This document shows, piece by piece, positions 6,129-25,035 of a stretch of DNA of 38,525 bases. The notes below the pieces were generated by a model. It was not told the origin of the DNA. It saw nothing but the letters and a program-made list of their open reading frames with translations, and ran no database searches. This DNA is from an uncultured Bacteroidota bacterium (GTDB lineage: Bacteria; Bacteroidota; Bacteroidia; Flavobacteriales; Flavobacteriaceae): NCBI GenBank assembly GCA_902606525.1, contig CACLGW010000010.1, positions 1-38,525 on the forward strand, read 5' to 3'. The translations under genes and the position numbers were made by a program. Within the stretch, counting starts at the first letter, position 1. Every line of letters begins with the position of its first letter.

Positions 6129-6617
6129 TTATCCTTTTTTTGGCCTTTGATTTTCATACACAATGATTCTACTAACTAAACCATCTTCTAGTTGAAAATC
6201 TCCCATATGCAATATTACATTTTCTTCTCCATCTACATTAGATGTTAATGCAAAACCTGCAATTACCCACGTTTCTTGAGCTTTGACAGAGTTGTATGGT
6301 AATATCCAATATGGTTTCCAAGTCACATTATTAGCAAAAAATGATTCAAGAACTTTAGAATGTTCATCTTGACCATTAATCACTGTTCCATCTGGAAGCT
6401 CTATCTTAATATCAGTTTTTTCCATGGATAAAATTGACTCCATATCTCTTTCATTATGTGCATCAGCCCATTTTCTTATAAAATCTGTGGTTTCATCTGA
6501 ACCAATCATATAAGATTCCTCTTCACCTCTAATAGAGTAACCTGCAGTTTGTGGCTCTTGTTTTTGCTCTGCACAAGATGCAAATATGATTACAATTAAC
6601 AATATATATTTTTTCAT
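6129..6617 (-). CDS. NTF2/SnoaL-like lipoprotein
   Basis: I placed the start at the ATG at 6617 because it gives MKKYILLIVIIFASCAEQ, a clean lipoprotein signal with lipobox FASC. An in-frame ATG 24 bases upstream would put charged and polar residues before the signal. The mature protein (about 145 residues) contains FIRKWADAHNERDMESILS, followed by alternating strands (DIKIELPDGTVINGQDE, ILPYNSVKAQETWVIAGFAL). This is the pattern of NTF2-like/SnoaL-like folds, which range from binding proteins to isomerases. No catalytic residues can be assigned. The bases just before the start match the leader of the secreted paralogue family further along. Confidence 0.6.
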   Translation of the reverse strand: MKKYILLIVIIFASCAEQKQEPQTAGYSIRGEEESYMIGSDETTDFIRKWADAHNERDMESILSMEKTDIKIELPDGTVINGQDEHSKVLESFFANNVTWKPYWILPYNSVKAQETWVIAGFALTSNVDGEENVILHMGDFQLEDGLVSRIIVYENQRPKKG

Positions 6618-6637
6618 TATGTATGATTTATAATTAA
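6618..6637 (-). promoter_or_regulatory. Conserved 5' leader core before the NTF2-like lipoprotein
   Basis: The minus strand reads TTAATTATAAATCATACATA directly before the ATG. Its first 14 bases differ at one position from TTAATCATAAATCA, the leader core of the secreted paralogues at 12432, 13842 and 24243. It supports the start at 6617 and hints at shared regulation. Confidence 0.45.
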
Positions 6638-6720
6638 GCATCTAATTTAATAAAATACAAATGCAGAATTATTAGTTGATAGAGTTCTTTGAAGAAATTT
6701 TAAAGGTTAAATTTTCGCTA

Positions 6721-12431: not shown

Positions 12432-13226
12432 ATGAAAAAACTATTTTTTATAATATTACTTATACCAATTACAATATCAGCACAATATGCAGTCGCAGAC
12501 TTTATCCAAATAAATGATGGGATGGAAAACGATTATGAAAAATTAGAAAAAGCTTGGTCTATTTGGAGACAAAATCAAATTGACAAAGGGCAGAAAATGA
12601 ATTGGGCTGTGTGGAAGAGAACACATAAATCAGGAGACCCTGAAAGAGCAGCAGATTATGTTGTTTTTAATAATTTTCAAACAAAAGAAGAGATGAACAG
12701 TTATCTTAAAGGAGATTCAAATTTTTCTTTAAAATCTGTTGCATCAGTCATGCGCAAAGGAATGAAAGGTATGTCAACAAGTTCAATTATAAAACTGATA
12801 ACACCAACTAAAAATAATATAAAAAAACAAGCAAGGCGATATTGTATTCAAATAATGGATGCAACACCATTTACAGGAGGTGACGTAAAGATCGGAGATA
12901 AGATATTGATGGATCCTATGGTTCAAAAAAGTGAAGAATACGAACAAATGGAATCAAACGTTTGGAAACCATATGTTCTTGAACAAGTGAAAAACGGTCT
13001 TCACAGGGGATGGGCTTTAACAAAAATTATTGAAAGAAGTGAAAATGCAAATAATGAGGTAACTCATTTCACATTTAATATACCAATAGAAGGTGCTAAA
13101 TGGCCCAATTATTATGTTGAAAATGAATTTATAACAAAAAAGTTATCTGAATTGATGACTAGTTCAAGAGAAAGACCTTATGGAAGTAGTGAACTTACTT
13201 TAGTAATGCAAAAGAAAAGTAATTAA
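12432..13226 (+). CDS. Secreted paralogue 1: duplicated alpha/beta-barrel-like protein
   Basis: This 264-residue protein has a signal peptide (MKKLFFIILLIPITISAQ). The mature part looks like two copies of one unit: a strand, a long amphipathic helix containing W, then a G/N-W-A strand ending in a basic residue, and a further strand. In the first copy the helix YEKLEKAWSIWRQNQ leads to NWAVWKR (57-63); in the second, YEQMESNVWKPYVLEQ leads to GWALTKI (193-199). The same arrangement occurs in the proteins at 21127 and 24243. The pattern suggests ferredoxin-like dimeric alpha/beta-barrel (ABM/EthD/NIPSNAP-like) domains, but that is a fold inference. No catalytic residues are apparent. It has its own leader and terminator, so it is probably monocistronic. 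Confidence 0.6.
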   Translation: MKKLFFIILLIPITISAQYAVADFIQINDGMENDYEKLEKAWSIWRQNQIDKGQKMNWAVWKRTHKSGDPERAADYVVFNNFQTKEEMNSYLKGDSNFSLKSVASVMRKGMKGMSTSSIIKLITPTKNNIKKQARRYCIQIMDATPFTGGDVKIGDKILMDPMVQKSEEYEQMESNVWKPYVLEQVKNGLHRGWALTKIIERSENANNEVTHFTFNIPIEGAKWPNYYVENEFITKKLSELMTSSRERPYGSSELTLVMQKKSN

Positions 13227-13269
13227 TTAGTTTACTGAGTATAAAAACATATCTTTAAATAAATACTAG

Positions 13270-13296
13270 CCCCTCCTAAACGAGGGGTTTTTTTTT
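13270..13296 (+). terminator. Rho-independent terminator after secreted paralogue 1
   Basis: CCCCTC pairs with GAGGGG across a 6-base loop (CTAAAC), followed by nine T. It lies 44 bases after the stop at 13226. Confidence 0.85.
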
Positions 13297-13309
13297 AATT
13301 TGAAATCCA

Positions 13310-13329
13310 TTAATTATAAATCAATCAAG
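13310..13329 (+). promoter_or_regulatory. Paralogue-type leader before the decayed gene
   Basis: TTAATTATAAATCAATCAAG directly precedes the ATG at 13330 and matches the leader core of the secreted paralogues at most positions. It shows that the decayed gene was wired like its neighbours, although its protein is not a member of that family. Confidence 0.45.
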
Positions 13330-13740
13330 ATGAAAACCAAATTAATTTTACAATTATTTGATGTATTCTTCATATTGATAGGTACTTTTTTATGGACCTA
13401 GAAGAAATCATTGAGAAGGCAAGGATCCTCACAGAACAAGAAAAAAATAAGTACCTAGCAAAAATAAAAGGATGGATTAATTAAGTTCTTGCAATTACAG
13501 TAAATACTGTTGAGGCCTTCAATATTGGAATTTTATTGATGCTCGTATCCATAAGCAATCTCGTAGATTTATAATTAACAAAAAAAATAAGAGGACATAC
13601 ATTCCTTTGCATATGGATTATTACTTTCAGCATTATTTAATACAATTTTCCTAGAAGGTGGTCCTCCACTCCCAGTATTTATTCCTTTTATCACAGTAGA
13701 CAACCAAGCTGCTTATGATTCAAGAAAAGGCACTATTTAA
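13330..13740 (+). pseudogene. Decayed small membrane-protein gene
   Basis: This stretch holds protein-like pieces in several frames. ATG 13330 gives MKTKLILQLFDVFFILIGTF, then TAG at 13399. A shifted frame from 13392 gives MDLEEIIEKARILTEQEKNK and on to GWIN, a TAA at 13482, then in the same frame VLAITVNTVEAFNIGILLML, closed by TAA at 13572. A third frame (13591-13740) gives AYGLLLSALFNTIFLEGGPP, then PVFIPFITVDNQAAYDSR. Read together they resemble a membrane protein of about 130 residues broken by two frameshifts and two stops. I do not recognise the family. The intact leader upstream and the lack of any competing gene in this 615-base gap support recent decay. Confidence 0.55.
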
Positions 13741-13821
13741 ATCATTAATATATCCGCTTGATTAAGTTTGATAAGAAAAACACGGAGTAGAGATTTTAAG
13801 ATTTTCTATATTAGCAGCTTA

Positions 13822-13841
13822 TTAATCATAAATCAATAAAA
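13822..13841 (+). promoter_or_regulatory. Conserved 5' leader of secreted paralogue 2
   Basis: TTAATCATAAATCAATAAAA directly precedes the ATG. Including the bases before it (AGCTTATTAATCATAAATCA), it is identical to the leader of paralogue 1 over about 20 bases, although the two proteins are far diverged. Confidence 0.5.
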
Positions 13842-14540
13842 ATGAAATTTAAATTATATTTATTAATATTTGCATTTAATTTCTACTGTATACTTGATGC
13901 ACAAGTTACAGAGGGAGGTAATTCTTGGATCGATTACGAAATAATAGTTGAGAATAACAATGCTCCAACTGTTTTAAATCTTTTAGACTCGTTTTTTTCA
14001 AAACCTGAAAATAAAATAGATGGTTTAACTTACAACTTAACACAGTTTAATTATAAGGACAAAGACTTTAAAGCCACACATTTATTTCAAGTGGTTGGAC
14101 CTGCTGATGCATTAAGCAAATGGCACCACAACCCTCCAAGTATTGAAGGGCAATTAACCGGCACAATGGTCAATCAATTTATAAAACCATACTCTGCATT
14201 TTTTGGGAAAAATATTATTTCTTTTGGAACGCCAAGCAATGATAAACTTGAATTTACTTTTTCTTTAAAAGTAAATGATGAAGAAAAATTTTCAACTGCT
14301 TGGATAAAGGCAATTAAAGCTTTAAAGCCAAATAATGTTGTTGGTCTAGGATCTGTAATAGCTGGAGGATCTGATGGGCAAACACACTACATATACACTC
14401 AAAGAGATAATATGGAAGCAGTTTTTAACCCGAAAACAATTAAAGGGAGCGATAAAATTTGGAAAACATTTCGTCAAGAGGCTGGTGAATTTGAAGTAAT
14501 TAGGAAAATTGTTAGAACTAGGCTCAAAATTTGGGAATAG
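13842..14540 (+). CDS. Secreted paralogue 2: duplicated alpha/beta-barrel-like protein
   Basis: The 232-residue protein has a signal peptide cleaved near LDAQ. Its C-terminal half shares a block with the protein at 19890: here FSTAWIKAIKAL, then VVGLGSVIAGG, then DGQTHYIYT (about residues 150-186); there YAAAWVKFAKAI, MMGLGSISMGD, DGATHYTVF. The N-terminal half (YEIIVENNNAPTVLNLLD, then HLFQVVGPADALSKWH) looks like a second strand-helix-strand unit. This places it in a subgroup with 19890, distinct from 12432, 21127 and 24243. Function is unknown. It lies between its own leader and a strong terminator, so it is a single-gene unit. Confidence 0.6.
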   Translation: MKFKLYLLIFAFNFYCILDAQVTEGGNSWIDYEIIVENNNAPTVLNLLDSFFSKPENKIDGLTYNLTQFNYKDKDFKATHLFQVVGPADALSKWHHNPPSIEGQLTGTMVNQFIKPYSAFFGKNIISFGTPSNDKLEFTFSLKVNDEEKFSTAWIKAIKALKPNNVVGLGSVIAGGSDGQTHYIYTQRDNMEAVFNPKTIKGSDKIWKTFRQEAGEFEVIRKIVRTRLKIWE

Positions 14541-14564
14541 TTACGCTATTTTTTTATAAAAATT

Positions 14565-14591
14565 AAACCCTCATAAGTGAGGGTTTTTTTT
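14565..14591 (+). terminator. Rho-independent terminator after secreted paralogue 2
   Basis: AAACCCTCA pairs perfectly with TGAGGGTTT across the loop TAAG, and the T tract continues. On the minus strand the stem is preceded by A and followed by TTTAATTT, so it may also serve the convergent gene at 14628. Confidence 0.9.
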
Positions 14592-14627
14592 GTAACATAT
14601 AAAAAAGTAAAAACTATAGATTAAATT

Positions 14628-15716
14628 TTATAATCTTACTTTACAATTTTGTTCAGCAGACTTATAAATAGCCTCTACTATATGAATATCTTTCAATCCT
14701 TCTTCCCCGGGAACAATCAGATCTTTATTTTTTATAATTGAATCTGCATCTTCATCCATTTGTCTTGCCTGTTGGTTTTCTATTGGAAAGTTAATTATGC
14801 TACCGTTTGACATACTCCCTTTATTACCAGTATACGACGAATGAGGTTTCATTTTGAGCCATCCTCTTTCATAATTTATGTGTAGATAATTCATTTGAAT
14901 ACCAAAACTTGTTTGGCATGCAGCAAGTGCACCACTAGGAAACTCCAACTGAAACATCATAGTTTCATCTACTTCATGATAAACTTTAGGTCGTGTTGTG
15001 GAAGATTGTGCCATAACAGAGATAGGCTCTTCACCTGTTGCTAATCTAGCTCCTTGGAGAGCATAAACACCCATATCTCCCATCGCTCCACCTCCCATAA
15101 TCTTCTTTTGCTTCCAATGTTCACTTCTTCCATCAAAGTAGCCAGCAGCAGAACTAATCATCCTTACTTTGCCAAAAAGTTTCTGCTTTCCAACATTAAT
15201 GTAAGATTGAATATTAGGATCATGTTGACATCTATAACCAATTGCAAGTTTCACTTTATTATCTGCACATGCTTTTATCATTGATTGACATTCTTTTACT
15301 GAAGGAGCCATAGGTTTTTCACACCACACGTGTTTTCCTGCTTTTGCCGCCCTTATCGTATATTCAGCATGCATAGATGGTGGTAGTACCACATAAATCA
15401 CATCAATGTCTGGATTATTTGCTATTCCATTAAAATTTTGATAGTTGTAAATATTTTTTTCTTTTATTTTATATTTCTTCTGCCACTTTGGAATTTTATC
15501 AGGGCTTCCAGTTACAATACCTTTAAGTTCACAGTTTTTTGTCAATTGCAAAGCAGGTGCAAGTAAATTAGTACTATAGTAACCAAGGCCAACAAGTGCA
15601 ACTCCTAATTTTTTTTTTTTTATTCTGGAAGCTGATACAATAATGTTAGGAGAAAAAGCGGTTGTTGCGGTTATAATTCCTGCGTTTTGACAAAATTTAC
15701 GTCTATCTTTATTCAT
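14628..15716 (-). CDS. Tat-exported Gfo/Idh/MocA family oxidoreductase
   Basis: This 362-residue NAD(P)-dependent oxidoreductase starts MNKDRRKFCQNAGIITATTA, a twin-arginine signal, so it is probably folded with its cofactor and exported to the periplasm. The Rossmann domain has GVALVGLGYYSTNLLAPAL (about 38-56), the middle VIYVVLPPSMHAEYTIRAAK, and the family signature CEKPMA with the conserved lysine. The C-terminal alpha/beta domain carries GGGAMGDMGVYALQGARLATG, as in glucose-fructose oxidoreductase-like members. Substrates of exported Bacteroidota members are mostly unknown; several act on sugars or glycosides. It is convergent with paralogue 2 and divergent from the TetR gene. Confidence 0.85.
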   Translation of the reverse strand: MNKDRRKFCQNAGIITATTAFSPNIIVSASRIKKKKLGVALVGLGYYSTNLLAPALQLTKNCELKGIVTGSPDKIPKWQKKYKIKEKNIYNYQNFNGIANNPDIDVIYVVLPPSMHAEYTIRAAKAGKHVWCEKPMAPSVKECQSMIKACADNKVKLAIGYRCQHDPNIQSYINVGKQKLFGKVRMISSAAGYFDGRSEHWKQKKIMGGGAMGDMGVYALQGARLATGEEPISVMAQSSTTRPKVYHEVDETMMFQLEFPSGALAACQTSFGIQMNYLHINYERGWLKMKPHSSYTGNKGSMSNGSIINFPIENQQARQMDEDADSIIKNKDLIVPGEEGLKDIHIVEAIYKSAEQNCKVRL

Positions 15717-15793
15717 CTTTACTCTATATTAATATCTATTTGATTATTACTTTTATTCATACTCTAAATCTAATAATATTTGTTAAATTAACT

Positions 15794-15820
15794 AAACCCC
15801 TTTAATGGAGGGGTTTTTTA
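15794..15820 (+). terminator. Orphan terminator-like hairpin between divergent genes
   Basis: AAACCCCT pairs with AGGGGTTT across 7 bases and is followed by a T tract. It lies between the divergent starts at 15716 and 15896, where no gene ends. It may be a relic of a lost gene, or an attenuator-like element upstream of the promoter at 15853. Confidence 0.6.
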
Positions 15821-15852
15821 GATTCAAGGATAAGAATAAACCATAAACAGTT

Positions 15853-15860
15853 TATATTTG
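15853..15860 (+). promoter_or_regulatory. -7 box (TATATTTG) for tetR-ABC1 kinase
   Basis: TATATTTG is an exact TAnnTTTG match 35 bases before the ATG at 15896, giving a leader of about 30 nt. No TTG at the usual -33 spacing is visible. Confidence 0.5.
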
Positions 15861-15895
15861 TATTGATTCTTATAAATTTTAATATAAAATAGGTG

Positions 15896-16531
15896 ATGAA
15901 ACAAAATATCTTCAAATATTATATCAAATCGGTTTTAGAAAATGATAAAGAGCCTACCTCAGTGTATAGGTTTTGTAATGAACTCAAAATTAAAGAATCT
16001 GAATTTTATAATCATTTTGCATCTCTCGATTATCTTAAAAGTCAAATTTTTCTCCAGTTTTACAATAATACAATCTCTTTAATTCAAAAAGAAAAAGGAT
16101 ATATTTCTAAATCGCCAAAAGAAAAACTTCTTTCATATTACTTTACTTTCTTCGAAGTCTTATTACTTAACCGAAGCTATGTCCTATTTAGCTTAAACAG
16201 TGGGAAAAATTCATTAGATAAGATGGTTACTTTAAAATCTCTTAAGTTGGCATTCAAAAAATTTGCAGCAGATTTGATTCAGGATGGAAACAACCACAAA
16301 AACTCATTAATTAATAAAAGACCTGAAGGTATTTTTTCAGAAGGTGCTTGGATTCAGTTAATGTTTTTGTTAAAGTTTTGGATGGATGATGTTTCATCTG
16401 ATTTTGAAAAAACTGATATCGCTATTGAAAAGTCTGTACGTACAGTTTTTGATTTATTTGATAGCTCTCCCTTCGACAGTGTGATTGATTTTGGTAAGTT
16501 TCTTTGGAAAGAAAAATTCAGTATCATATAA
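15896..16531 (+). CDS. TetR family transcriptional regulator
   Basis: I take the ATG at 15896 rather than the preceding in-frame GTG. The 211-residue protein starts with a TetR-type DNA-binding domain (about residues 1-55): a first helix ending YIKSVLEND, then VYRFCNELKIKESEFYNHFA, then LDYLKSQIFLQFY. The remainder is an all-helical ligand/dimer domain. It ends exactly one base before the TTG start of the ABC1 kinase gene, and this TetR/ABC1 pairing recurs in flavobacteria, so it probably autoregulates the two-gene operon. The ligand is unknown. Confidence 0.75.
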   Translation: MKQNIFKYYIKSVLENDKEPTSVYRFCNELKIKESEFYNHFASLDYLKSQIFLQFYNNTISLIQKEKGYISKSPKEKLLSYYFTFFEVLLLNRSYVLFSLNSGKNSLDKMVTLKSLKLAFKKFAADLIQDGNNHKNSLINKRPEGIFSEGAWIQLMFLLKFWMDDVSSDFEKTDIAIEKSVRTVFDLFDSSPFDSVIDFGKFLWKEKFSII

Positions 16532-17842
16532 TTGAAAACATTAAACTCAATACCTACCAAAAAAATTGAACGCGCCACCAAACTCTTATCTACTGGCCTT
16601 AAAATTGGCGGAAATTACATTCGATATTACAGTGAAAAGCTGATAAATAGAGAGGACAATAAAAATAAATTAGACCAGAATAATGCAAAAGATATTTATG
16701 ATGGTCTTAAAATATTAAAGGGAAGCCCTTTAAAAATTGTTCAAATGCTGAGCATGGAGAAAAACTTACTTCCGCAGGCATATGTTGAACAATTTGGCTT
16801 AGCTCAATTTTCAGTACCACCTCTATCAGGGTCTTTGGTAAAAAAAATATTTCGTAAATATTTGGGAGAGGACCCTGAAATTATTTTTGATTCATTTTCA
16901 TACAAATCCAAAAATGCTGCAAGTATCGGTCAAGTTCATAAGGCAAAAAAAGGTGGAAAAGAGTTTGCTATAAAAATTCAATATCCTGGTGTTTCAAATA
17001 GTATAAGTTCAGATCTAGCAATAGTAAAACCTCTAGCACTAAAAATGTTTAATTTGAAATTAAGAGATAGTGAACATTACTTCAATGAAGTTGAAGAAAA
17101 ATTATTAGAAGAAACAGACTATTTACTAGAACTAAAAAATAGTCAATTTATTTCAGATGCAGCAAAGAAAATACCTCAATTGATTTTTCCTAAATATTAC
17201 TCTAAAATGACAACTTCAAGAATCTTAACTATGGATTGGATCAGTGGTGTTCATCTTTCAGAATTTGTCTTAAAGGAGCACTCCCAAGGTGTTCGAGACA
17301 AACTAGGTCAAACACTATGGGATTTCTATATGTTTCAAATTCATGGATTAAAAAAAGTTCAGGCTGATCCACATCCAGGCAATTTTCTTGTAAATAACAA
17401 TAACGAACTTATTGCTATTGACTTCGGTTGTGTGAAAAAAATTCCAAATGAATTTTATATTCCTTACTTTAAATTATCTAAAAAGGAAAACTTAGATAAT
17501 GAGGTAATTTTTGTTGATTTGCTAAATGAACTTGAAATTCTTCTTCCCTCTGATACTAATCAACAAAAAACCTATTTTAAAAAACTCTTTTATAAAATGA
17601 TGTGTTTATTTACACTTCCTTTTCATAACAAATCTTTTGATTTTCAGAATGAAAAATTTTGGCAAAATATCACCAACCTCTCAAAAATACTATCAAATGA
17701 TGAGCAACTTCGCAAAATGAATGGAAACAGAGGTTCAAAACATTTTATTTACATGAATCGAACTTTTTTTGGGTTATATCACCTACTACACGATTTAAGA
17801 GCCAATATTCAGACAGAAAATTTTAAAAGATACTTAAATTAA
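16532..17842 (+). CDS. ABC1/AarF/UbiB family atypical kinase
   Basis: The start is TTG at 16532, directly after the TetR stop; the next in-frame Met lies inside the conserved domain. The 436-residue product has the ABC1 hallmarks in order: LKGSPLKIVQMLSMEKNLLP (62-81, corresponding to the KxGQ region, here K-I-V-Q), NAASIGQVHKA (128-138, the alanine-rich loop), the ATP-binding lysine in FAIKIQYPG (K148), EETDYLLEL, ADPHPGNFLV (catalytic loop) and AIDFGCVKKIP (DFG). ABC1 proteins are atypical kinases or ATPases linked to quinone biosynthesis and lipid handling. This subfamily, encoded with TetR, is not UbiB itself. No transmembrane helices at the C-terminus are evident. Confidence 0.85.
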   Translation: MKTLNSIPTKKIERATKLLSTGLKIGGNYIRYYSEKLINREDNKNKLDQNNAKDIYDGLKILKGSPLKIVQMLSMEKNLLPQAYVEQFGLAQFSVPPLSGSLVKKIFRKYLGEDPEIIFDSFSYKSKNAASIGQVHKAKKGGKEFAIKIQYPGVSNSISSDLAIVKPLALKMFNLKLRDSEHYFNEVEEKLLEETDYLLELKNSQFISDAAKKIPQLIFPKYYSKMTTSRILTMDWISGVHLSEFVLKEHSQGVRDKLGQTLWDFYMFQIHGLKKVQADPHPGNFLVNNNNELIAIDFGCVKKIPNEFYIPYFKLSKKENLDNEVIFVDLLNELEILLPSDTNQQKTYFKKLFYKMMCLFTLPFHNKSFDFQNEKFWQNITNLSKILSNDEQLRKMNGNRGSKHFIYMNRTFFGLYHLLHDLRANIQTENFKRYLN

Positions 17843-17914
17843 TTTTTTTTAGATTTTGAGTATTGTAATCGATTAAATAAGAAATCTATTGAGACTTTTT
17901 TGTAATTTTAATAA

Positions 17915-18307
17915 ATGAAAAAAACTTTTTTAATATTATTTTTTCTTGGTTTTAATTTTTTACTAGCTAACAAAAATACTACTGAGAATCATTCAATGAA
18001 TGTAACTGCTGAAAGCAGAAATAATTATGTCTTATCTGGAACTGATAACAATGGAACTGTCAAAGGGAGTGATCCAGAATTAATCTTTAAAATAGGGTCT
18101 AAAGTAGACTTTATTATTGATTCACCTGGTCATCCTTTTCTTCTAAAATTAAAAGCTGGCATTGGCAAAAAAAATAAGATTGAAGGGATAAAAAATAATG
18201 GCACCACAAAAGGTGTAATTACCTGGAAACCCTTAAAACCAGGTATTTATTATTACCAATGTGCAAAGCATAAAAATATGGTTGGAGTAATTAAAATAAT
18301 TGAATGA
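17915..18307 (+). CDS. Secreted plastocyanin-like (type-1 copper) protein
   Basis: A signal peptide (about residues 1-19, ending LLAN) precedes a single cupredoxin domain. The type-1 copper ligands are all visible: His73 in SPGHPF, Cys116 and His119 in YYYQCAKHKNM, and Met122. The C-x2-H-x2-M spacing is typical of short plastocyanin/azurin-like loops. The domain is clearly paralogous to the C-terminus of the lipoprotein at 9517 (shared NVTA, LSGTD-NNG, GSDPELIF, GIKNNG). It probably carries electrons in the periplasm. The stop overlaps the ATG of the M20 peptidase gene by 4 bases (ATGA), so the two are translated together. Confidence 0.82.
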   Translation: MKKTFLILFFLGFNFLLANKNTTENHSMNVTAESRNNYVLSGTDNNGTVKGSDPELIFKIGSKVDFIIDSPGHPFLLKLKAGIGKKNKIEGIKNNGTTKGVITWKPLKPGIYYYQCAKHKNMVGVIKIIE

Positions 18308-19803
18308 AAAAAATTATAATTTGTATTTTAATCTCAAGTTTCGGGTTTAGCCAATCTTCTCAAGAGTTAGATGTTTGGGCAAAGGATGCTACAATCAAAT
18401 CATTTGAAATGTTTCGAGAAATCTTAAGTATTCCAAATGATGCAAATCAATTGGATGATATTGAATTAAATGTCAGATGGTGTGAAGAAAAATTTATCGA
18501 TAGAGGTTTTATTACTAAAAGAATAAAAACTCCAAAAGCTCCATTATTGCTAGCAGAGAAAGTATTTTCCAAAGCCAATGAAACTGTATTAATTTACTTA
18601 CAAATTGACGGTCAACCTGTCGATCCATCTAGATGGTTTCAAGAAAATCCGTATGAACCAGTTTTAAAAAAACAAAATACTCAGGGACATTGGGAAATTA
18701 TAGACTGGAATAATATAATAAACTACGAGGACGACTGGCGAATTTTTGCTCGATCTACAAGTGATGCAAAAGGTCCAGTTGTCATGTTTTTAAATGCAAT
18801 GGATATTTTAGAAGAAAAAAAATTGTTTCCTAATTTTAATATAAAGGTTATAATGGATTTTGAAGAAGAGTTAGGATCTCCCAACTTACCAAATGCAGTA
18901 AATTCAAACAGGAGAATATTGTCTGCTGATCATTTAATTATCTTTGACGGTCCGAAGCACAGATCAGGAAAACCCACTTTAACTTTTGGTGCAAGAGGAA
19001 TTTCGACAATAAAATTAACAATTCACGGGCCATTGACAGCTCAACACAGTGGGCATTTTGGAAACTATGTACCTAATCCAGCTTTGAGAATGGCTAAGCT
19101 ACTTTCATCTATGAAGGATGACGAAGGAGTAGTGACAATACCTGGTTTCTACGATGGGATTTCAATTGATTCAAAGACAAAACAAATATTAGATAGATTC
19201 CCTCACGATCAAGAAGAGTTTATGAAAACCTTGCAAATTGGTGAACTTGACAAAGTAGGAGATAATTATCAGGAATCAATCCAGTTCCCATCACTAAATA
19301 TACGAGGTATGCAGTCTGGTTGGATAGATGAAAAAGTTAGAACAATAATACCGGCCTGGGCTAGAGCTGAAATTGACATCCGCTTAGTTCTGGAGTCTGA
19401 CCCTGTACGTTTAATAAATCTTGTTAAAAAACATATTGAAAAAAATGGATATCTTGTTGTTGATAGAGAGCCCACAGCAGAAGAACGTATTGGAAATCCT
19501 AAAGTAGCTACTTTTACACATAAAATTTCATATCAATCTTTTAGAACAGATTTGGAAACAAAAGTTGGAAAATGGCTACGTAGGGCTATTATAAAAGGCT
19601 TCAAAACAGATCCAATTAGAATTAGAATGAGCGGGGGTTCAATACCTATATCACCCTTTGTAAATACTTTAGATATTCCTGCTGTGACTGTACCAACTGT
19701 TAACCGAGATAATAATCAACATAGTCCAAATGAAAACATAAGGCTAGGAGACTATCGAAATGGAATCAAGACAATTTTAGCAATACTAACTGAACCTCTA
19801 TAG
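18304..19803 (+). CDS. Secreted M20 family metallopeptidase-like protein
   Basis: The 499-residue protein has a signal peptide cleaved near FGFSQ and the two-domain layout of M20 peptidases. The catalytic parts are YLQIDGQPVDPSRW (98-111), ARSTSDAKGP (149-158, metal-bridging Asp154), MDFEEELGSP (184-193, catalytic and ligand Glu), IFDGP (213-217, Asp ligand), and the C-terminal GGSIPISPF with QHSPNEN (His ligand). The first ligand, normally His in H-x-D, is Gln100 here, so the metal site is altered or this belongs to a Gln-bearing subfamily. The lid domain starts near GARGISTIKLTIHG. It is encoded with the cupredoxin by a 4-base overlap, but a functional link is not obvious. The substrate is probably a dipeptide or N-acyl amino acid. 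Confidence 0.78.
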   Translation: MKKIIICILISSFGFSQSSQELDVWAKDATIKSFEMFREILSIPNDANQLDDIELNVRWCEEKFIDRGFITKRIKTPKAPLLLAEKVFSKANETVLIYLQIDGQPVDPSRWFQENPYEPVLKKQNTQGHWEIIDWNNIINYEDDWRIFARSTSDAKGPVVMFLNAMDILEEKKLFPNFNIKVIMDFEEELGSPNLPNAVNSNRRILSADHLIIFDGPKHRSGKPTLTFGARGISTIKLTIHGPLTAQHSGHFGNYVPNPALRMAKLLSSMKDDEGVVTIPGFYDGISIDSKTKQILDRFPHDQEEFMKTLQIGELDKVGDNYQESIQFPSLNIRGMQSGWIDEKVRTIIPAWARAEIDIRLVLESDPVRLINLVKKHIEKNGYLVVDREPTAEERIGNPKVATFTHKISYQSFRTDLETKVGKWLRRAIIKGFKTDPIRIRMSGGSIPISPFVNTLDIPAVTVPTVNRDNNQHSPNENIRLGDYRNGIKTILAILTEPL

Positions 19804-19854
19804 AGTTTTTAACATTTTATACCATTTGGAAACCACTTCTAACAAAAGTTTTTT

Positions 19855-19889
19855 TGTAGATTGGTTCACTAATCATAAATCAAATTAAA
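19855..19889 (+). promoter_or_regulatory. Conserved 5' leader of secreted paralogue 3
   Basis: CTAATCATAAATCAAATTAAA directly before the ATG matches the leader core with one changed base and one inserted base. TTTTTTTGTAGATT upstream matches the promoter-proximal part of the leaders at 12432 and 24243. GATT and AATC flank a short loop here as well. Confidence 0.5.
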
Positions 19890-20561
19890 ATGAAAAAAAT
19901 AATATATCTAATTTTATTTACTCTGACAACTACTATATCTGCTCAAAGCATTAGAGTTTATAATTTAAATGTTGCCCCTGAAAATGCATCATCTGTTGCA
20001 GATTTATTTAAGGAATATCATGAAAATGGTAAAAGAAAATCTGGAAATGTAATTCTCCAAAGGGTTCGTTTCCAAAATCATGTTACTCATCGAGTAATAA
20101 TAACAGGCGATCCAAATAATTGGGGCAGTGCCATAGACAGATCTGAATCAGATTGGAAAGCATATTATAGGGGTACAAGGACATTTAGAAGACCATCTGA
20201 AGGTTCTTATACAGCCAGATCTGCATATTGGAAAAATGGTAATAGAGAAAAATATCATGTAGGCCAACAGTGGCTTATTAGAGTTGAAGATCCAGTTAAA
20301 TATGCTGCAGCATGGGTTAAATTTGCTAAAGCAATTGAGTCTATGATTGGTGATCGAATGATGGGATTAGGATCTATTTCAATGGGAGATTTAGATGGTG
20401 CAACTCATTATACAGTATTTTACGGTGAAAGCATGAATGATTTAGAAATTACGCTTAACAAAATAAGAAATTCCAAGGCATATGAAGAGTTTTCTAAAGC
20501 TAGAGGCCAAAACGAAATAATAAAATCTTTTGCTGTAGAGGATCTTTTATCATATAATTGA
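19890..20561 (+). CDS. Secreted paralogue 3: duplicated alpha/beta-barrel-like protein
   Basis: The 223-residue protein has a signal peptide (MKKIIYLILFTLTTTISAQ). The first unit starts with strand SIRVYNLNVAPEN, helix SVADLFKEYHENG and strand VILQRVRFQ. The second starts VGQQWLIRVEDP, then helix YAAAWVKFAKAIESM, then MMGLGSISMGD and DGATHYTVFYGE, shared closely with the protein at 13842. The middle (EGSYTARSAYWKNGNREKYH) is rich in Tyr, Arg and Lys. It looks like two fused ferredoxin-like alpha/beta units, exported. No catalytic motif or cofactor site is visible and no experimentally known homologue comes to mind. Confidence 0.6.
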   Translation: MKKIIYLILFTLTTTISAQSIRVYNLNVAPENASSVADLFKEYHENGKRKSGNVILQRVRFQNHVTHRVIITGDPNNWGSAIDRSESDWKAYYRGTRTFRRPSEGSYTARSAYWKNGNREKYHVGQQWLIRVEDPVKYAAAWVKFAKAIESMIGDRMMGLGSISMGDLDGATHYTVFYGESMNDLEITLNKIRNSKAYEEFSKARGQNEIIKSFAVEDLLSYN

Positions 20562-20586
20562 TTTAGAATTTCCTTTTCTAATACAC

Positions 20587-20613
20587 CCCCATGTTGGACT
20601 CTGGGGTTTTTTT
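20587..20613 (+). terminator. Terminator after secreted paralogue 3
   Basis: CCCCA pairs with TGGGG across a 10-base loop, followed by seven T. It lies 25 bases after the stop at 20561 and ends just before the DUF423 gene start. Confidence 0.65.
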
Positions 20614-20624
20614 AATTTTATATT

Positions 20625-20999
20625 GTGAAAAAAGCTGTTTTTTTTGGAGCACTGTTTGGATTATTATCTGTCATTATTGGTGCTTTCAACAGCCACGCTT
20701 TAAAAAAATTGCTTCCAGAAATAGCTGTAGAATCAATTGATGTTGCCCTCAAGTATATGATGTATCATGGACTTGCATTATTAATCTTGTCTATTTTACC
20801 ATTAAAAGAAAAAAAATATGTAATTAATCTTTTTATTTATGGGACTATACTTTTTTCTTTTAGTATTTTACTATTATCGTTCCAGTCAATGATCAACTTT
20901 AATGTTAGTTGGTTAGGTCCTATAACTCCAATAGGTGGTTTTTTATTAATTATTGGCTGGATTTACCTTATGTATAAATTTACAAGGGGAAAAGAATAG
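20625..20999 (+). CDS. DUF423 family membrane protein
   Basis: The 124-residue protein starts with GTG at 20625 and is almost entirely hydrophobic, with four predicted membrane helices. It has the family features FFGALFGLLSVIIGAFNSHA near the N-terminus, ALKYMMYHGLALLIL in the middle and WLGPITPIGGFLLIIGW near the C-terminus, and a normal family length. DUF423 proteins (YgdD/YwdK type) are inner-membrane proteins of unknown function. TATATTG lies directly before the GTG and may be a -7 box giving a leaderless transcript. Confidence 0.85.
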   Translation: MKKAVFFGALFGLLSVIIGAFNSHALKKLLPEIAVESIDVALKYMMYHGLALLILSILPLKEKKYVINLFIYGTILFSFSILLLSFQSMINFNVSWLGPITPIGGFLLIIGWIYLMYKFTRGKE

Positions 21000-21050
21000 A
21001 TGTTGAGATTATTTTAAAGTAGTTAGCTACCATTCTAAAATGATAATCCC

Positions 21051-21068
21051 ATAATCATAAATTAAAAA
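21051..21068 (+). other. Orphan copy of the paralogue leader
   Basis: ATAATCATAAATTAAAAA matches the leader core seen before the secreted paralogues, but no start codon or reading frame follows it. The real leader of the gene at 21127 lies 37 bases further on. It is either a partial duplication or a relic of a lost gene. Confidence 0.3.
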
Positions 21069-21090
21069 CTTCTGATTAGGAACTTTTTGT

Positions 21091-21126
21091 AATTTAGATT
21101 CATATTAACCATAAATTAATTTAAAA
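21091..21126 (+). promoter_or_regulatory. Conserved 5' leader of secreted paralogue 4
   Basis: TTAACCATAAATTAATTTAAAA directly before the ATG is the most diverged copy of the leader core. CTTTTTGTAATTTAGATT upstream keeps the TTTTTGTA and AGATT elements. Confidence 0.45.
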
Positions 21127-21924
21127 ATGAAAAAACTAATTACAACTGTATTTATATTATTTATTTCTTTTTCGTATTCACAAGACTATTTTTATCATGA
21201 CTACAGGGTGATTCCGCAAAGTGATTTACAACATCATATAACTATTGAAAAGAATTTTTGGAGCAAAGTTGCTCAGCTTTTAATAAAAGAAGGTAAACTC
21301 AACGGTTGGGCCATGCTTCAAAGGGAAGGTGGATCTTCAAATGAACCCAACATTTATTTTTATATAGGTATTGGTGATAAGAAAAACCTTGATAATTTAA
21401 TGGATAATTATGCAGATGCTCAATCAAGGGTTCTACAACAAATGGGGCCAGATACTTCAGAATTAGCTAAAATAGCTATTACAGTGGAGCCTACAAGTGT
21501 TTTTAATGCTACAATGCAAAGAACTAATAGCACAATTGCAAAGAATAGTTCAAAATTTAATTATGTGAAGATTAATTATGCGAAAGTAAAGGGAGAAGTA
21601 AATCAATTCTCTAGTATGCAAAAGTCTATATGGGGAAACTTTATAAAAAAGGAAATGGATAAAGGAAATGGCAGTCAAGTAATGTGGACTACAGCCAGAA
21701 AAGTTTCTCCGAATGGGAATGGATATAATTGGAATTATATGACAATTGATGGATATTTAAGCAGTTCTGATTTAATTGCACCCTCTTGGAATCCCAACAC
21801 AAAATTTCCTAAAGGATTAGATGAAATAAATTCGATGATGGAAGGTGGTACTTTTTATAAACAAGTTGTTTGGAAAATTTTAATGTCAGTTGATAATGAA
21901 GGGAATTTACACATCCATGATTAA
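21127..21924 (+). CDS. Secreted paralogue 4: duplicated alpha/beta-barrel-like protein
   Basis: The 265-residue protein has a signal peptide (MKKLITTVFILFISFSYSQ). The two units can be matched: helix HITIEKNFWSKVAQLLIKEG with strand GWAMLQR (60-66), and helix FSSMQKSIWGNFIKKEMDKG with strand VMWTTAR (185-191). The W in the helix and the G-x-x-x-W-A strand motif match the proteins at 12432 and 24243. Strands YFYIGIGD and NWNYMTIDGY fit the third strand of each unit. The C-terminus ends NEGNLHIHD, an extension not seen in the others. Function is unknown. It has its own leader and terminator. Confidence 0.6.
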   Translation: MKKLITTVFILFISFSYSQDYFYHDYRVIPQSDLQHHITIEKNFWSKVAQLLIKEGKLNGWAMLQREGGSSNEPNIYFYIGIGDKKNLDNLMDNYADAQSRVLQQMGPDTSELAKIAITVEPTSVFNATMQRTNSTIAKNSSKFNYVKINYAKVKGEVNQFSSMQKSIWGNFIKKEMDKGNGSQVMWTTARKVSPNGNGYNWNYMTIDGYLSSSDLIAPSWNPNTKFPKGLDEINSMMEGGTFYKQVVWKILMSVDNEGNLHIHD

Positions 21925-21947
21925 TAAATAAAATTTTAGTCACTGAA

Positions 21948-21981
21948 AACCCCCTTCTTCTGTGAAAGGGGGTTATTTTTT
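21948..21981 (+). terminator. Terminator shared by paralogue 4 and the converging methyltransferase
   Basis: AACCCCCTT pairs with AAGGGGGTT across a 9-base loop, followed by ATTTTTT. The 3' arm overlaps the original stop codon of the minus-strand methyltransferase frame (21973-21975). The preceding ACTGAAAA gives a short T run on the minus strand. Confidence 0.85.
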
Positions 21982-22070
21982 CATAAAAATCATACAATGC
22001 TGCCAAGGAAGATTCTCTATATTTTCTCTGAATTTAAAACCAGCGGCCTCCATTTCTTTTACAGCCTGTT
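21973..22070 (-). pseudogene. Detached C-terminus of the exported methyltransferase
   Basis: After the frame of the methyltransferase at 22691 stops at 22059, a frame shifted by one base continues with QAVKEMEAAGFKFRENIENL and ends PWQHCMIFMKK before a TAA at 21973. This is a typical C-terminal helix-strand finish of class I methyltransferases. The break lies at a run of four T (plus strand, 22069-22072); one additional T would restore MTEKQAVKEMEAAGF. It is a true single-base loss or a homopolymer sequencing error. Confidence 0.7.
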
Positions 22071-22691
22071 TTCAGTCATCTTGTGTATCTTTTTAATAGG
22101 AACTTTTAAGTCTTCACCTTTATATTCAATTAAGAATAACTCTCCATCAGGCTTTAAGGCTTTTTTAATTGAAGCCATCATCTCAATCGGAAAACTAAAC
22201 TCATGATATACGTCAACCATTAAAATTTTGTCAACTGAATTTTTAGGTAAATGAATACTCTTTTCAGTTCCAAGGATTGTTTCAATATTTTTGGTTTTAA
22301 TGATCTTTTTGGTCTTTTCAATCTCACTTAACATTTCAACCTGAATATCTACCGCATACACCATACCGTTTTTGACTAAAGGCGCCATTCTGAATGCATG
22401 ATAACCAGAACCAGCTCCAATATCTGCAATAGTGTCATCAGGATTAATTGACATATTTTGAATCAGTTTTGAAACATTTTCTTCTTTTTCTCGATCTGAC
22501 CTTTCTAGCCAATTAATTCCTTGAAATCCCATTACATATGCTATTTCTCTTCCCATATACCACTTACCTATTCCATTGATATCTCCTCTTTTAAAAATGT
22601 ATTTTTTATCAGTACTCAAGTTTTGACCTGTACTAATATTGGATGTTAATAGAGAAAATAATATTAGTAGTAAAAGATTAAACTTTATCAT
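22059..22691 (-). CDS. Exported class I SAM-dependent methyltransferase (C-terminus frameshifted)
   Basis: The 210-residue product has a signal peptide (MIKFNLLLLILFSLLTSNIS, cleavage near STGQ), unusual for a SAM-dependent enzyme but known in Bacteroidota and Planctomycetes families. The SAM motif I is TIADIGAGSGYHAFRMAP. Motif II follows as VYAVDIQVEML, then ILMVDVYHEF and LKPDGELFLIEYKGED. A conserved WLERSDREKEENVSKLI segment precedes the fold, as in that exported family. The last about 30 residues are in another frame (21973-22070) because of a single-base shift, so the enzyme is intact up to strand 5 or 6 but lacks its final strand if the shift is real. The substrate is unknown. Confidence 0.75.
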   Translation of the reverse strand: MIKFNLLLLILFSLLTSNISTGQNLSTDKKYIFKRGDINGIGKWYMGREIAYVMGFQGINWLERSDREKEENVSKLIQNMSINPDDTIADIGAGSGYHAFRMAPLVKNGMVYAVDIQVEMLSEIEKTKKIIKTKNIETILGTEKSIHLPKNSVDKILMVDVYHEFSFPIEMMASIKKALKPDGELFLIEYKGEDLKVPIKKIHKMTENRL

Positions 22692-22761
22692 AAGACTTAA
22701 ATGATTGATATTATGTGATTAAATAAAAATTACACCGACAGAAAAATCGATTGGATAAATT

Positions 22762-23547
22762 CTAAAAAGATTTAAGCAAACCTCCATCAATAGGTATGTT
22801 AGTTCCAGTAATATAGCTTGCTTGCTCTGATGCTAGAAAACAAACTAAGTTAGCATATTCTTCAGGACGACCAATACGTTTTGCAGGAACAGAGTCCTCC
22901 ATTGCAGCACGCACTTCAGTTTCAGGTATTCCCATTTTTTTTGCCTTTTGAGCGTTAAGTTGGGTAATGCGTTCAGTATCAAAATATCCTGTTAATGTAT
23001 TGTTGATGGTAATATTATCCTTAGCAATATCTAGGGATATACTTTTCGCCCAAGTTACCAAGGCTGCTCGTAAACTGTTAGAAAGAGACAAATAATTCAA
23101 TGGCTCTCGAACAGATATAGATGCTACGTTTATTATTCGCCCCCATTTTTCTTTTTGCATGTAGGGTAAAGCAAGACTTGTAGTTAAAACTGCACATTTG
23201 AACAATAAATCAAATGCAGCTTGGTAGTCCTCAATATCTTTTTCTAATGCTCCCCCAGCACTAGGCCCTTGAGTATTATTTATTAATATATCAACAGTAT
23301 TATTTTTAAAATATGTCTCTATTTTTTCTTTAAAATCAGAAAAATCAGAAAAATCTACAACCAAATATTGATGATTTTGACCTGTTTTTGTATTTAATAG
23401 ATTTACAGCCTGTTTTAAAACTATTTCGCTTCTTGCCATTAAAGTGACATTAGCTCCTGAAATTGCAAGTTGTTCAGCTATTGCACGACCAATTCCTTTA
23501 CTACTTCCACCTACCAAAGCATTTTTACCCCTTAAGTCTATATTCAT
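22762..23547 (-). CDS. SDR family oxidoreductase with atypical active site
   Basis: The 261-residue protein has the Rossmann nucleotide motif GGSSKGIG (13-20), the strand-4 motif as NNTQGPSAGG (90-99) instead of NNAG, and the C-terminal IDGG. The catalytic Ser is kept (S143 in NVASIS). The Tyr and Lys of the YxxxK motif are replaced: the aligned residues are S156 and R160 in LSLSNSLRAA. This L-S-N-x-x-R pattern with NNTxGP is a recognisable SDR subgroup often annotated as beta-ketoacyl-ACP reductase-like. Its reaction is therefore uncertain. It starts 3 bases after the cupin stop, in an HTH-cupin-SDR operon. Confidence 0.85.
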   Translation of the reverse strand: MNIDLRGKNALVGGSSKGIGRAIAEQLAISGANVTLMARSEIVLKQAVNLLNTKTGQNHQYLVVDFSDFSDFKEKIETYFKNNTVDILINNTQGPSAGGALEKDIEDYQAAFDLLFKCAVLTTSLALPYMQKEKWGRIINVASISVREPLNYLSLSNSLRAALVTWAKSISLDIAKDNITINNTLTGYFDTERITQLNAQKAKKMGIPETEVRAAMEDSVPAKRIGRPEEYANLVCFLASEQASYITGTNIPIDGGLLKSF

Positions 23548-23550
23548 TAT

Positions 23551-23862
23551 CTATAGGTATTCTTTTCGAACTGGACTAAAAACATCCATTATTTTACATG
23601 GGGTTAATGCCTTACCCTTGTGAGAAATATTAGAATCAATATGAACAAAATCACCAGAATTGTAAATTTGAGTATTTCCGTTGACAGTAAACTCAAATTT
23701 ACCATCAACTATATGCATAATTTGCTCGTGATGATGACTATGTTCAGGAATTACTGATCCCTTTTCAACATCCCAAAACGCCCAAGTAAGTTTTTCTCCA
23801 TGGACCATTTTTCCATGACAACCAGGCATAAACTCCTTACTTTGTATTTTAGCTATATTCAA
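23551..23862 (-). CDS. Small single-domain cupin
   Basis: The 103-residue protein is one cupin barrel. Cupin motif 1 is PEHSHHHEQIMHIVDGKFEF (about 39-58), supplying the His/His/Glu metal ligands, and motif 2 is SGDFVHIDSNISHKG with the later His. Small cupins of this kind are metal-dependent enzymes or sensors. It lies 6 bases after the HTH protein and 3 before the SDR gene, so the three are one transcript. Cupin/SDR pairs are common in flavobacteria, where a role in small-molecule turnover is assumed but unproven. It could also act as the ligand-sensing partner of the HTH protein. Confidence 0.8.
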   Translation of the reverse strand: MNIAKIQSKEFMPGCHGKMVHGEKLTWAFWDVEKGSVIPEHSHHHEQIMHIVDGKFEFTVNGNTQIYNSGDFVHIDSNISHKGKALTPCKIMDVFSPVRKEYL

Positions 23863-23868
23863 AATTAG

Positions 23869-24102
23869 TTAACATTTACAATTATGCTTATCTCTACAAT
23901 ATTGATAAATATCGACTCCATAATATTTCTTTAATAATATATCAAATTTCGTTTTTGAAAGTCCACTTATTTTATGTAAATCAGATAATTGTTTTTTGGT
24001 TTTAGTTTCATTTTCTGATGATTTTATTATGGGATCAGCTATAGATAAACAATAATTTAACCTTGATTTAGCTTTTAATATTTTAGGAGTTATATCTGAC
24101 AT
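23869..24102 (-). CDS. Mini AraC-like helix-turn-helix protein
   Basis: This 77-residue protein has a charged N-terminal helix (about 1-40) followed by DLHKISGLSKTKFDILLKKY and YGVDIYQYCRD. The second half reads like one HTH of an AraC/XylS DNA-binding domain: L-x-x-x-x-G-L-S-x-x-K-F, then the (F/L)-K-x-Y-x-G-x-x-x-x-x-Y recognition-helix signature. Only one of the usual two HTH units is present and there is no ligand domain. Three cysteines at the C-terminus (YCRDKHNCKC) could bind metal. It is the first gene of the HTH-cupin-SDR operon and may control it, or may be a fragment of a larger regulator. Confidence 0.55.
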   Translation of the reverse strand: MSDITPKILKAKSRLNYCLSIADPIIKSSENETKTKKQLSDLHKISGLSKTKFDILLKKYYGVDIYQYCRDKHNCKC

Positions 24103-24211
24103 ATCAGAATTTTATTAAATTATTGGAATTATAGCAATATATGAAAATACTTTTATTATTTGAATTTTATTGTTTTCTATTCTATTGATTGTTCTATGCG
24201 TTTTTTTATAT

Positions 24212-24242
24212 TGTAGATTATTAATCATAAATCTTTTTTAAA
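24212..24242 (+). promoter_or_regulatory. Conserved 5' leader of secreted paralogue 5
   Basis: TTAATCATAAATC occupies 24221-24233, followed by a T-rich stretch to the ATG. TATATTGTAGATT upstream resembles the promoter-proximal part of the leaders at 12432 and 19890. GATT and AATC flank a 3-base loop here. Confidence 0.5.
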
Positions 24243-24986
24243 ATGAAAAAACTATTATTTATAAGTTTTCTATTAACAAGTTTTTGTATTCTAGCACAAC
24301 AAACCTTTGTTTTGAATCCAGCTATGGTAGATCCAGAAGATGCAGAAAATTTTGAAATGCTAATAGAAAAGTATGGGAAAGGAATGGCAAAAGATGCAGT
24401 TGATGAGGGTATTATTCAGGGTTGGGCAGTCTTGAAGAGAGTTCAAGGAATGGGAAAAGTTGAGGATGAAAAAATTAACTATCTATGGGTGACAATTTAT
24501 GAAAGTCCAAAAAAATATGTAAATAGAAAAAGTTGGTTTAACACAGAAAAAAAATATGGTATTCCTGGTGATGTTTTATGGGGTGGTATTGATATAGATC
24601 GTTACGGCAGCTTTATTTACAAGACAGAAAAAAGATATGATACAGACCTAGAAGGTAAGTTTATTATTTTTAACTGGGCTTTTCCAAAAAATCTTAATGA
24701 TACCATGACATTAGCAGATAAAATATCAACTAGCTTTAAAAAAGATATGGAAAAAGCTGGAATGGCTTCTTGGGGTATGGCTACTAGGATTATTCCTCAG
24801 GATTCAGATTTAGCTCCATTATTTTTTTGGGATTCATATGAAAATATGGAACAAATTTTAGATCATTTAATGTATAAAGCTGTAATTAAAAATGTTGACC
24901 AAAAGCTATTAGATCAATTACAAGAGCAATTACCAGATGGTTGGGAGAATAGAGTGGTCTGGGAGTTTGTCTCCAGGTCTAACTAA
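24243..24986 (+). CDS. Secreted paralogue 5: duplicated alpha/beta-barrel-like protein
   Basis: The 247-residue protein has a signal peptide (MKKLLFISFLLTSFCILAQ). Unit one runs strand TFVLNPAMVDPED, helix FEMLIEKYGKGMAKDAVDEG, strand GWAVLKR (60-66), then NYLWVTIYESP. Unit two runs strand FIIFNWAFPKN, helix LADKISTSFKKDMEKAG, strand SWGMATR (176-182), then PLFFWDSYENMEQIL. The parallel order makes an internal duplication clear and ties it to the proteins at 12432 and 21127. The sequence SYENMEQIL resembles the end of an ABM/EthD-like unit, supporting a dimeric alpha/beta-barrel fold. Function is unknown. Confidence 0.62.
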   Translation: MKKLLFISFLLTSFCILAQQTFVLNPAMVDPEDAENFEMLIEKYGKGMAKDAVDEGIIQGWAVLKRVQGMGKVEDEKINYLWVTIYESPKKYVNRKSWFNTEKKYGIPGDVLWGGIDIDRYGSFIYKTEKRYDTDLEGKFIIFNWAFPKNLNDTMTLADKISTSFKKDMEKAGMASWGMATRIIPQDSDLAPLFFWDSYENMEQILDHLMYKAVIKNVDQKLLDQLQEQLPDGWENRVVWEFVSRSN

Positions 24987-25006: not shown

Positions 25007-25035
25007 ATAACCCTCCCCTTGGGAGGGTTATTTTT
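25007..25035 (+). terminator. Terminator after secreted paralogue 5
   Basis: ATAACCCTCCC pairs perfectly with GGGAGGGTTAT (11 bp) around CTT, followed by a T tract. The 3' end of the hairpin and the T tract overlap the -7 box of the next gene. Confidence 0.9.

Follow-up and report, generated by a model that had tools for sequence, protein, structure and literature searches.

INTRODUCTION

Oxygenases, cyclases and isomerases that act on aromatic compounds without a cofactor occur both among fused dimeric alpha/beta barrels and among SnoaL proteins. The solved structure closest to the proteins modelled here is 2PGC, a marine metagenome protein from the Joint Center for Structural Genomics. It is one of five structures from families termed novel in ocean metagenome data (PMC2557142). 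The present work concerns a stretch of 38,525 nucleotides (the window), contig C10 of a 1.24 Mb, 57% complete genome of an uncultured member of the Flavobacteriaceae, and five of its genes, which are named below by the first position of their open reading frames (ORFs; Table 1). An earlier note, made from the sequence alone, had described their products as exported paralogues with an internal duplication, expanded at one locus. We find that the five genes are old paralogues in variable islands, that they belong to two families, A and B, and that proteins of the SnoaL/NTF2-like type are enriched near these families in the genus.

RESULTS

Two families of exported-type proteins

The ORF list and translations bear out the five ORFs and their starts as first described: four proteins begin with MKK and one (13842) with MKF, and the N-terminus is hydrophobic and signal-peptide-like in all. 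Among the island proteins of more than 200 aa, the N-terminus is likewise hydrophobic in 78 of the 79 from A and in all 25 from B, by a lax measure which 276 of the 441 other ORFs of the loci pass as well. Export, as claimed in the earlier note, is consistent with these N-termini. None of the five proteins scored above the cut-off of any Pfam or NCBIfam model, the NCBIfam scan giving a single weak and irrelevant match, and so the statement that they match no described family holds. The sole fitting Pfam match was that of 19890 to DUF6854 (PF21614; 19.5 bits, E 0.0012, below the cut-off of 27). The other four window proteins gave no row for DUF6854, and none of the five gave one for ABM (PF03992) or, at E values up to 5, for NIPSNAP (PF07978).

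Iterative hidden Markov model (HMM) searches were seeded with each of the five proteins, with the first 21 residues removed and a target set that included reversed and shuffled decoys. They returned two separate sets, A (12432, 21127 and 24243) and B (13842 and 19890), which is the same split into subgroups that had been noticed by eye. Early searches in which the signal peptides were kept had merged A and B; this result was set aside, because common signal peptides can produce such merging. A FeoB-like GTPase (L003:970-3057 and, by its profile, also L079:5326-7419) drifted into A and was dropped from later alignments. When the larger A and B profiles were compared, they aligned over most of their length (probability 65%, P 6e-5), and with one side reversed the control values were P 0.49 and 0.18.

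Predicted fold

One member of each family was modelled with AlphaFold, 24243 for A and 19890 for B, from alignments of 49 and 11 proteins, respectively; 12432, 13842 and 21127 are placed by sequence family. Both models are confident by predicted local distance difference test (pLDDT) and predicted template modelling (pTM) score (Table 1), and both contain two tandem beta-alpha-beta-beta units with extra helices and strands. In Foldseek searches of the PDB the best match of both was 2PGC (E 3.5e-11 for 24243 and 1.4e-8 for 19890), with TM scores of 0.64/0.76 for A and 0.64/0.68 for B, about 0.63–0.77 overall, and alignments of 216–230 columns on a target of 203–206 residues. The runners-up for both models were the putative monooxygenases 3mcs and 3f44 and the anthrone oxidase-like 5f9p, and below those the lists consist mainly of chlorite dismutase and coproheme decarboxylase entries (TM about 0.43–0.56). 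The models thus support a fused dimeric alpha/beta barrel with two ferredoxin-like halves for families A and B, as the earlier note had proposed, and the fold search it had suggested for all five proteins gave one and the same best match for the two that were modelled.

Internal duplication and signature residues

Profiles of the N-terminal and C-terminal halves, compared by hhalign, match each other in A (P 7.6e-10) and in B (P 3.5e-6). With one half reversed, the values were P 0.63 for A and 0.19 for B, and 0.02–0.7 over all reversed pairs. Judged from sequence profiles, this supports an internal duplication with homologous halves in both families. The two repeat copies described earlier are upheld to this extent, but the Trp-bearing helix is not general and the GWA motif is missing from the two window B proteins. 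Even within A, GWAxxxR in both halves proved too strict a description; the constant feature is a single Trp in each half, namely W61 (67 of 68 rows) and W177 (all 68). Family B has one His per half, H67 and H173, each in 34 of 38 rows. In the half–half alignments W61 falls on W177 and H67 falls on H173. The motifs AWxK, GLGS and DGxTHY are indeed shared by 13842 and 19890, but they are confined to the C-terminal half, and it is the His that marks the repeat of B. Since the same mark is kept in both halves, both probably still work, and a signature residue in each half (Trp in A, His in B) suggests two quasi-equivalent pockets.

These residues bear on two rival explanations. The first is that the exported barrels are non-catalytic periplasmic carriers of ligands such as pigments, lipids, haem-like molecules or aromatics, with a role in scavenging or buffering. 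The near-invariant Trp of A would be more typical of binding than of acid–base catalysis, and many diverged paralogues are what one would expect of a binding repertoire; however, the structures ranked next after 2PGC carry the labels putative monooxygenase or anthrone oxidase-like, both halves of B retain a His, and SnoaL-type proteins, which accompany the barrels (see below), are often enzymes. On balance we regard the carrier explanation as unlikely, though one to be taken seriously. The second is handling of haem or porphyrin in the manner of chlorite dismutase or HemQ, which have the same fused barrel. Entries for chlorite dismutase and coproheme decarboxylase are numerous in the Foldseek lists of both models, and the His of each half of B is conserved, as judged by the alignment. 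Yet these entries score below 2PGC, 3mcs and 3f44, and none of the 16 most conserved positions of A is a His. We consider a haem role very unlikely.

Distribution and copy number

Among 38 genomes of the genus (1.0–2.2 Mb, many of them incomplete), A is present in 36 and B in 35. The window's own genome has 5 A and 6 B. The maximum is reached in genome G031, where 15 A and 8 B (one B row being a short single-domain protein) give 23 copies in about 1.9 Mb, along with 9 SnoaL-profile matches. For the searches of the bacterial family and phylum, at most 7–10 candidates per genome were scored, and the copy counts are lower bounds. Of 299 genomes sampled from the family, 59 have A and 38 have B; for the 392 from the phylum the figures were 46 and 3, one of the three being a weak partial match. 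Eight genomes of the family have at least 4 A rows, and all are of 2.1 Mb or less. Among the candidates scored, genomes above 2.2 Mb show 3 at most, and other flavobacterial genomes often have one or two A/B copies. A small genome is no rule outside the family, since G534, a 5.3 Mb genome of another class, has at least 4 A rows. The 25 named A loci, nearly all from metagenome or single-cell assemblies, are labelled Flavobacteriaceae (10), Flavobacteriales (2), Bacteroidetes (10), and Bacteroidia, Marinoscillum and Saprospiraceae (1 each).

Two 124-aa, single-unit relatives of family B (L065:8731-9102 and L066:11409-11780, both on the minus strand; E about 1e-8) are possibly half-size forms. 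L074:1089-1820, which has no Pfam match, and L149:9111-9839 represent a third family of exported proteins (about 245 aa), by eye tandem barrel-like.

Origin of the five genes

The earlier note had attributed the five genes to expansion by duplication at one locus. Each window protein has its best match in another genome, at 74–89% identity (Table 1), whereas the own-genome copies compared reach 22–31% at best, and we therefore reject local duplication as their origin. The same holds more widely: for 104 A/B proteins of more than 200 aa from 46 loci, the best match was in another genome for 103 and in the own genome for none, one protein having no match. There is thus no sign of recent local duplication in these comparisons, in which same-genome copies with identical or contained sequence had been merged as one stretch, so that identical recent duplicates would be missed. 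In a quick tree, with long branches, the three window A copies fall into three separate well-supported groups. In genome G015 the relatives of 13842, 21127 and 24243 are each found on a contig of their own (C2, C7 and C8). Part of the grouping is nevertheless old, since relatives of 24243 and 12432 adjoin each other both on C8 of G015 and on C4 of G031. The window and locus L087 of genome G008 share their flanks (the mnmE side, an exported methyltransferase and another exported protein), and the A/B genes in between differ.

Such synteny around differing genes would also fit conflict islands, in which arrays of diverged exported small proteins serve as immunity proteins or decoys against toxins or phages, and NTF2-like immunity families do exist. 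Against this, the identity of 74–89% across genomes indicates that the window copies are not fast-diverging, and no toxin or secretion gene is present among the neighbours scanned. Nor was a relative found in viral contigs, where none of 30 candidate stretches was related (query A3 only); viral carriage of A/B was rejected on this result. Conflict islands are, in our estimation, highly improbable.

Islands and their candidate SnoaL/NTF2-like partners

Of the 272 A/B copies listed for the genus, 116 have another copy less than 5 kb away. The list covers A with 150 of its 158 matches and B with 122 of its 125 rows (three fragments were left out, and single-domain or partial rows account for ten of the 122). 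Of the 84 copies on 18 long contigs, 59 lie this close, compared with 17.2 by random placement, and on the 10 contigs of at least 250 kb the figures are 32 of 51 and 5.9; the long contigs were those of known length, mostly ones from which A/B copies had come. The earlier note had asked whether the paralogues always cluster: the clustering is non-random but not universal, other flavobacteria often having one or two copies.

The SnoaL/NTF2-like partner families are an addition to what the earlier note described. Clustering of the ORFs of the 46 loci yielded one large non-A/B family, S, of 27 distinct SnoaL/NTF2-like proteins, once 7 rows had been removed, of which one was a fusion and the other six belonged to a single-domain family. 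The start is hydrophobic in 26 of the 27, and the S profile gives weak matches to NTF2 designs and SgcJ. Several smaller island families also have SnoaL matches. An independent check is provided by the Pfam SnoaL model PF07366, which was not built here: 12 of its 34 matches (18 of them below the cut-off, and partly overlapping S) lie within 5 kb of A/B, where 1.7 are expected, as do 6 of the 16 matches above the cut-off. Exported NIPSNAP proteins, taken as a control, gave 0 of 23 against 1.1 expected. Both expectations assume uniform placement, and the related genomes are non-independent. With the S profile itself, 51 of 100 matches in the genus are within 5 kb of A/B, and 25 of 33 on the long contigs; these counts are biased upward because the profile was built from proteins beside A/B.

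Pfam SnoaL cut-offs are passed by L144:12470-13000 (PF07366, E 6e-22), L143:15694-16065 and L141:9079-9546 (SnoaL_3, 22.9 against 22), and missed by window gene 6132, by the three S members scanned and by a fusion protein in L147. Gene 6132, separated by about 5.8 kb from whichever of the five is closest, belongs to a neighbour family (fam15) that recurs near A/B, and is a candidate partner. The fusion (L147:8260-9120, minus strand, 287 aa, exported-type) combines a SnoaL-like part (S profile E 9e-29) with a second domain, of 125 residues, which is found by itself as a small island protein as well. The latter domain matches neither the A nor the B profile, and only a reading of its sequence makes it a putative alpha/beta barrel. 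At locus L096, from another genus, the gene order is A-A-NTF2-like, with gaps of about 10–20 nt and the NTF2 assignment made by eye. Elsewhere in the islands lie genes for a PQQ dehydrogenase that carries a cytochrome c domain, for esterases or alpha/beta hydrolases and for a putative cyclase; these would fit secreted chemistry but prove nothing.

Neighbouring genes and transcription in the window

The redox, cupin and peptidase genes reported between the five were found again, as Gfo/Idh/MocA, SDR, M20 peptidase and cupin genes. That each of the five forms its own transcription unit was supported in part. A pattern scan placed terminator-like hairpins after four of them (Table 1) and none after 19890. 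Since 19890 is also close to its neighbours, with a gap of 86 bp to the preceding M20 peptidase ORF and of 63 bp to the DUF423 ORF that follows, it may be cotranscribed with them. Terminator-like sites were more frequent than expected (15 in 14 kb against 5.5), whereas promoter-like sites were not above expectation (82 sigma-70-like sites against 76.4; 51 for the pattern TANNTTTG against 68.7). Rfam and tRNA searches led nowhere.

Several other genes of the window deserve mention. A methyltransferase-fold protein (22059-22691, minus strand) has a signal-peptide-like start, which is odd for an S-adenosylmethionine-dependent fold, and a homologue occupies the matching place in L087. An alpha-L-fucosidase gene (25049-26860, plus strand) begins just past the hairpin that follows 24243. 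A TetR-type regulator gene is followed directly by one for an ABC1 atypical kinase (15893-17842, plus strand), a DUF285 repeat protein (9520-10914, minus strand; E 1.4e-110) is encoded near the cluster, and a 966-aa protein (33678-36575, minus strand) combines glycoside hydrolase family 3 domains with a beta-lactamase-fold domain.

Table 1. Family A and B genes, hairpins and the SnoaL/NTF2-like gene of the window
Feature	Position	Strand	Details	Nearest relative (identity)
Family A protein	12432..13226	+	264 aa, exported-type; HMM E 9e-52 (24243-seeded search, third round)	L141:5552-6340 of G010 (78%)
Family B protein	13842..14540	+	232 aa, exported-type; family B HMM E 9e-54	L145:8527-9222 of G031 (89%)
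Family B protein, B member modelled	19890..20561	+	223 aa; pLDDT 84.8, pTM 0.80	L087:9213-9881 of G008 (88%)
Family A protein	21127..21924	+	265 aa; HMM E 5e-60 (24243-seeded search, third round)	L081:8304-9098 of G015 (74%)
Family A protein, A member modelled	24243..24986	+	247 aa; pLDDT 89.1, pTM 0.84	L064:34-774 of G019 (82%)
Terminator-like hairpin after 12432	13268..13289	+	pattern scan	
Terminator-like hairpin after 13842	14565..14586	+	pattern scan	
Terminator-like hairpin, weaker, after 21127	21953..21972	+	pattern scan	
Terminator-like hairpin after 24243	25007..25031	+	pattern scan, 11 pairs	
SnoaL/NTF2-like protein, lipobox-like signal	6132..6641	-	170 aa; SnoaL_2 E 0.0049, 17.9 bits (cut-off 27)	

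DISCUSSION

The explanation we favour, tentatively and at somewhat less than an even chance, is that the A/B and SnoaL-like genes of small-genome flavobacteria, carried in part in variable islands, encode a periplasmic repertoire of small-molecule enzymes or binders, in which two old families of exported tandem barrels take part. The barrels and the SnoaL-like proteins would be exported to the periplasm and would there bind many hydrophobic or aromatic small molecules, which they would probably convert without a cofactor, by oxidation, isomerisation, cyclisation or hydrolysis. Different paralogues would serve different substrates, the two folds would cooperate, and island turnover would change the set. 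We have moderate confidence in a small-molecule function of A and B, and low confidence in catalysis on any named substrate.

A number of observations weigh against this explanation. The structure models cover two of the five window proteins, and TM scores of 0.63–0.77 at 14–15% identity speak for fold rather than function. Searches with A1, A2, A6, A7 and 24243 gave no credible sequence match to any solved structure, 2PGC being absent from their matches at E values up to 10, and in the literature found, parts of which were available to us, 2PGC has no stated function. The sequence kinship of A and B is weak, the probability of 65% having been 9% with fewer sequences, and for this reason their kinship rests mainly on the predicted fold. 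As regards the islands, 156 of the 272 listed copies are not within 5 kb of another, to which contig ends contribute, and 10 of the 27 S genes are directly beside a same-strand A/B gene within 250 bp. Where the surroundings of a lone A copy were listed, in other flavobacteria and in Bacteroidota, no common partner was evident by eye.

A bolder form of the proposal is possible but doubtful. Streamlined ocean flavobacteria would possess a hidden, highly diverged periplasmic repertoire of barrels and SnoaL/NTF2-like proteins in exchangeable islands, a toolkit for cofactor-free oxidation and cyclisation outside the cytoplasm. Its targets would be dissolved compounds of aromatic or polyketide-like type, and the two folds would work together on the same substrate. 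For two single-cell genomes of marine flavobacteria, which may or may not be close to this genus, very few paralogues were reported in a count at >30% similarity (PMC2668756). The A/B copies are so diverged that they would mostly escape a count of this type. If the set does act on dissolved organic molecules, it would provide a testable genetic basis for part of the periplasmic activity of uncultured ocean bacteria, and would give a function to a fold whose structure was solved in 2007, when its family was termed novel.

With regard to known systems, 2PGC is the closest in fold, being the top Foldseek match of both models, and differs in sequence to a degree that puts it beyond the reach of the sequence searches made. 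More similar in general design is an exported tandem NIPSNAP protein (PF07978) found in 23 of the 38 genomes of the genus, which has about 250 aa, an exported-type start and two similar halves. It differs in that there is one such protein per genome, not within 5 kb of A/B in any of the 23 cases, and its profile shows no link to A (P 0.18) or B (P 0.14). NIPSNAP membership of A and B was rejected on this ground and on the lack of any row for the five; of the ABM/EthD/NIPSNAP-like character proposed earlier, what remains is at most a kinship of fold with NIPSNAP. A and B might still belong to the NIPSNAP/ABM superfamily as divergent members that serve general stress responses or housekeeping, their copy number having little meaning. 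Consistent with this, the NIPSNAP model gives weak matches to 9 of 31 B members (best E 0.006), the NIPSNAP search of the genus returned two B genes below cut-off (E 0.005–0.006), and 19890 has its sub-threshold match to DUF6854. However, the true exported tandem NIPSNAP stands apart, and copy numbers that reach 23 in about 1.9 Mb, together with non-random islands, argue for selection, and we consider this explanation quite unlikely.

The likeness to ABM, DUF6854 and DUF1330 lies in the weak DUF6854 and NIPSNAP matches of B, and a DUF1330 protein (L145:3892-4209, above the cut-off) and a weak ABM match (L145:5361-5756, below the cut-off) occur near A/B copies; these families are single barrels, whereas the five proteins are tandem and exported, and none of the matches of the five is above cut-off. 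Chlorite dismutase and HemQ share the fused dimeric alpha/beta barrel and differ in their lower Foldseek scores and in the conserved residues of A. The island partners resemble the SnoaL/NTF2-like families, from which they differ in that several members fall below Pfam cut-offs. Families A and B, their numbers and the SnoaL association were not found in the literature searched, in which subscription journals were thinly covered and papers partly accessible. The fold itself is already known; the novelty, as far as that literature shows, would lie in the families that have it, in how many copies they form and in the SnoaL-like proteins near them.

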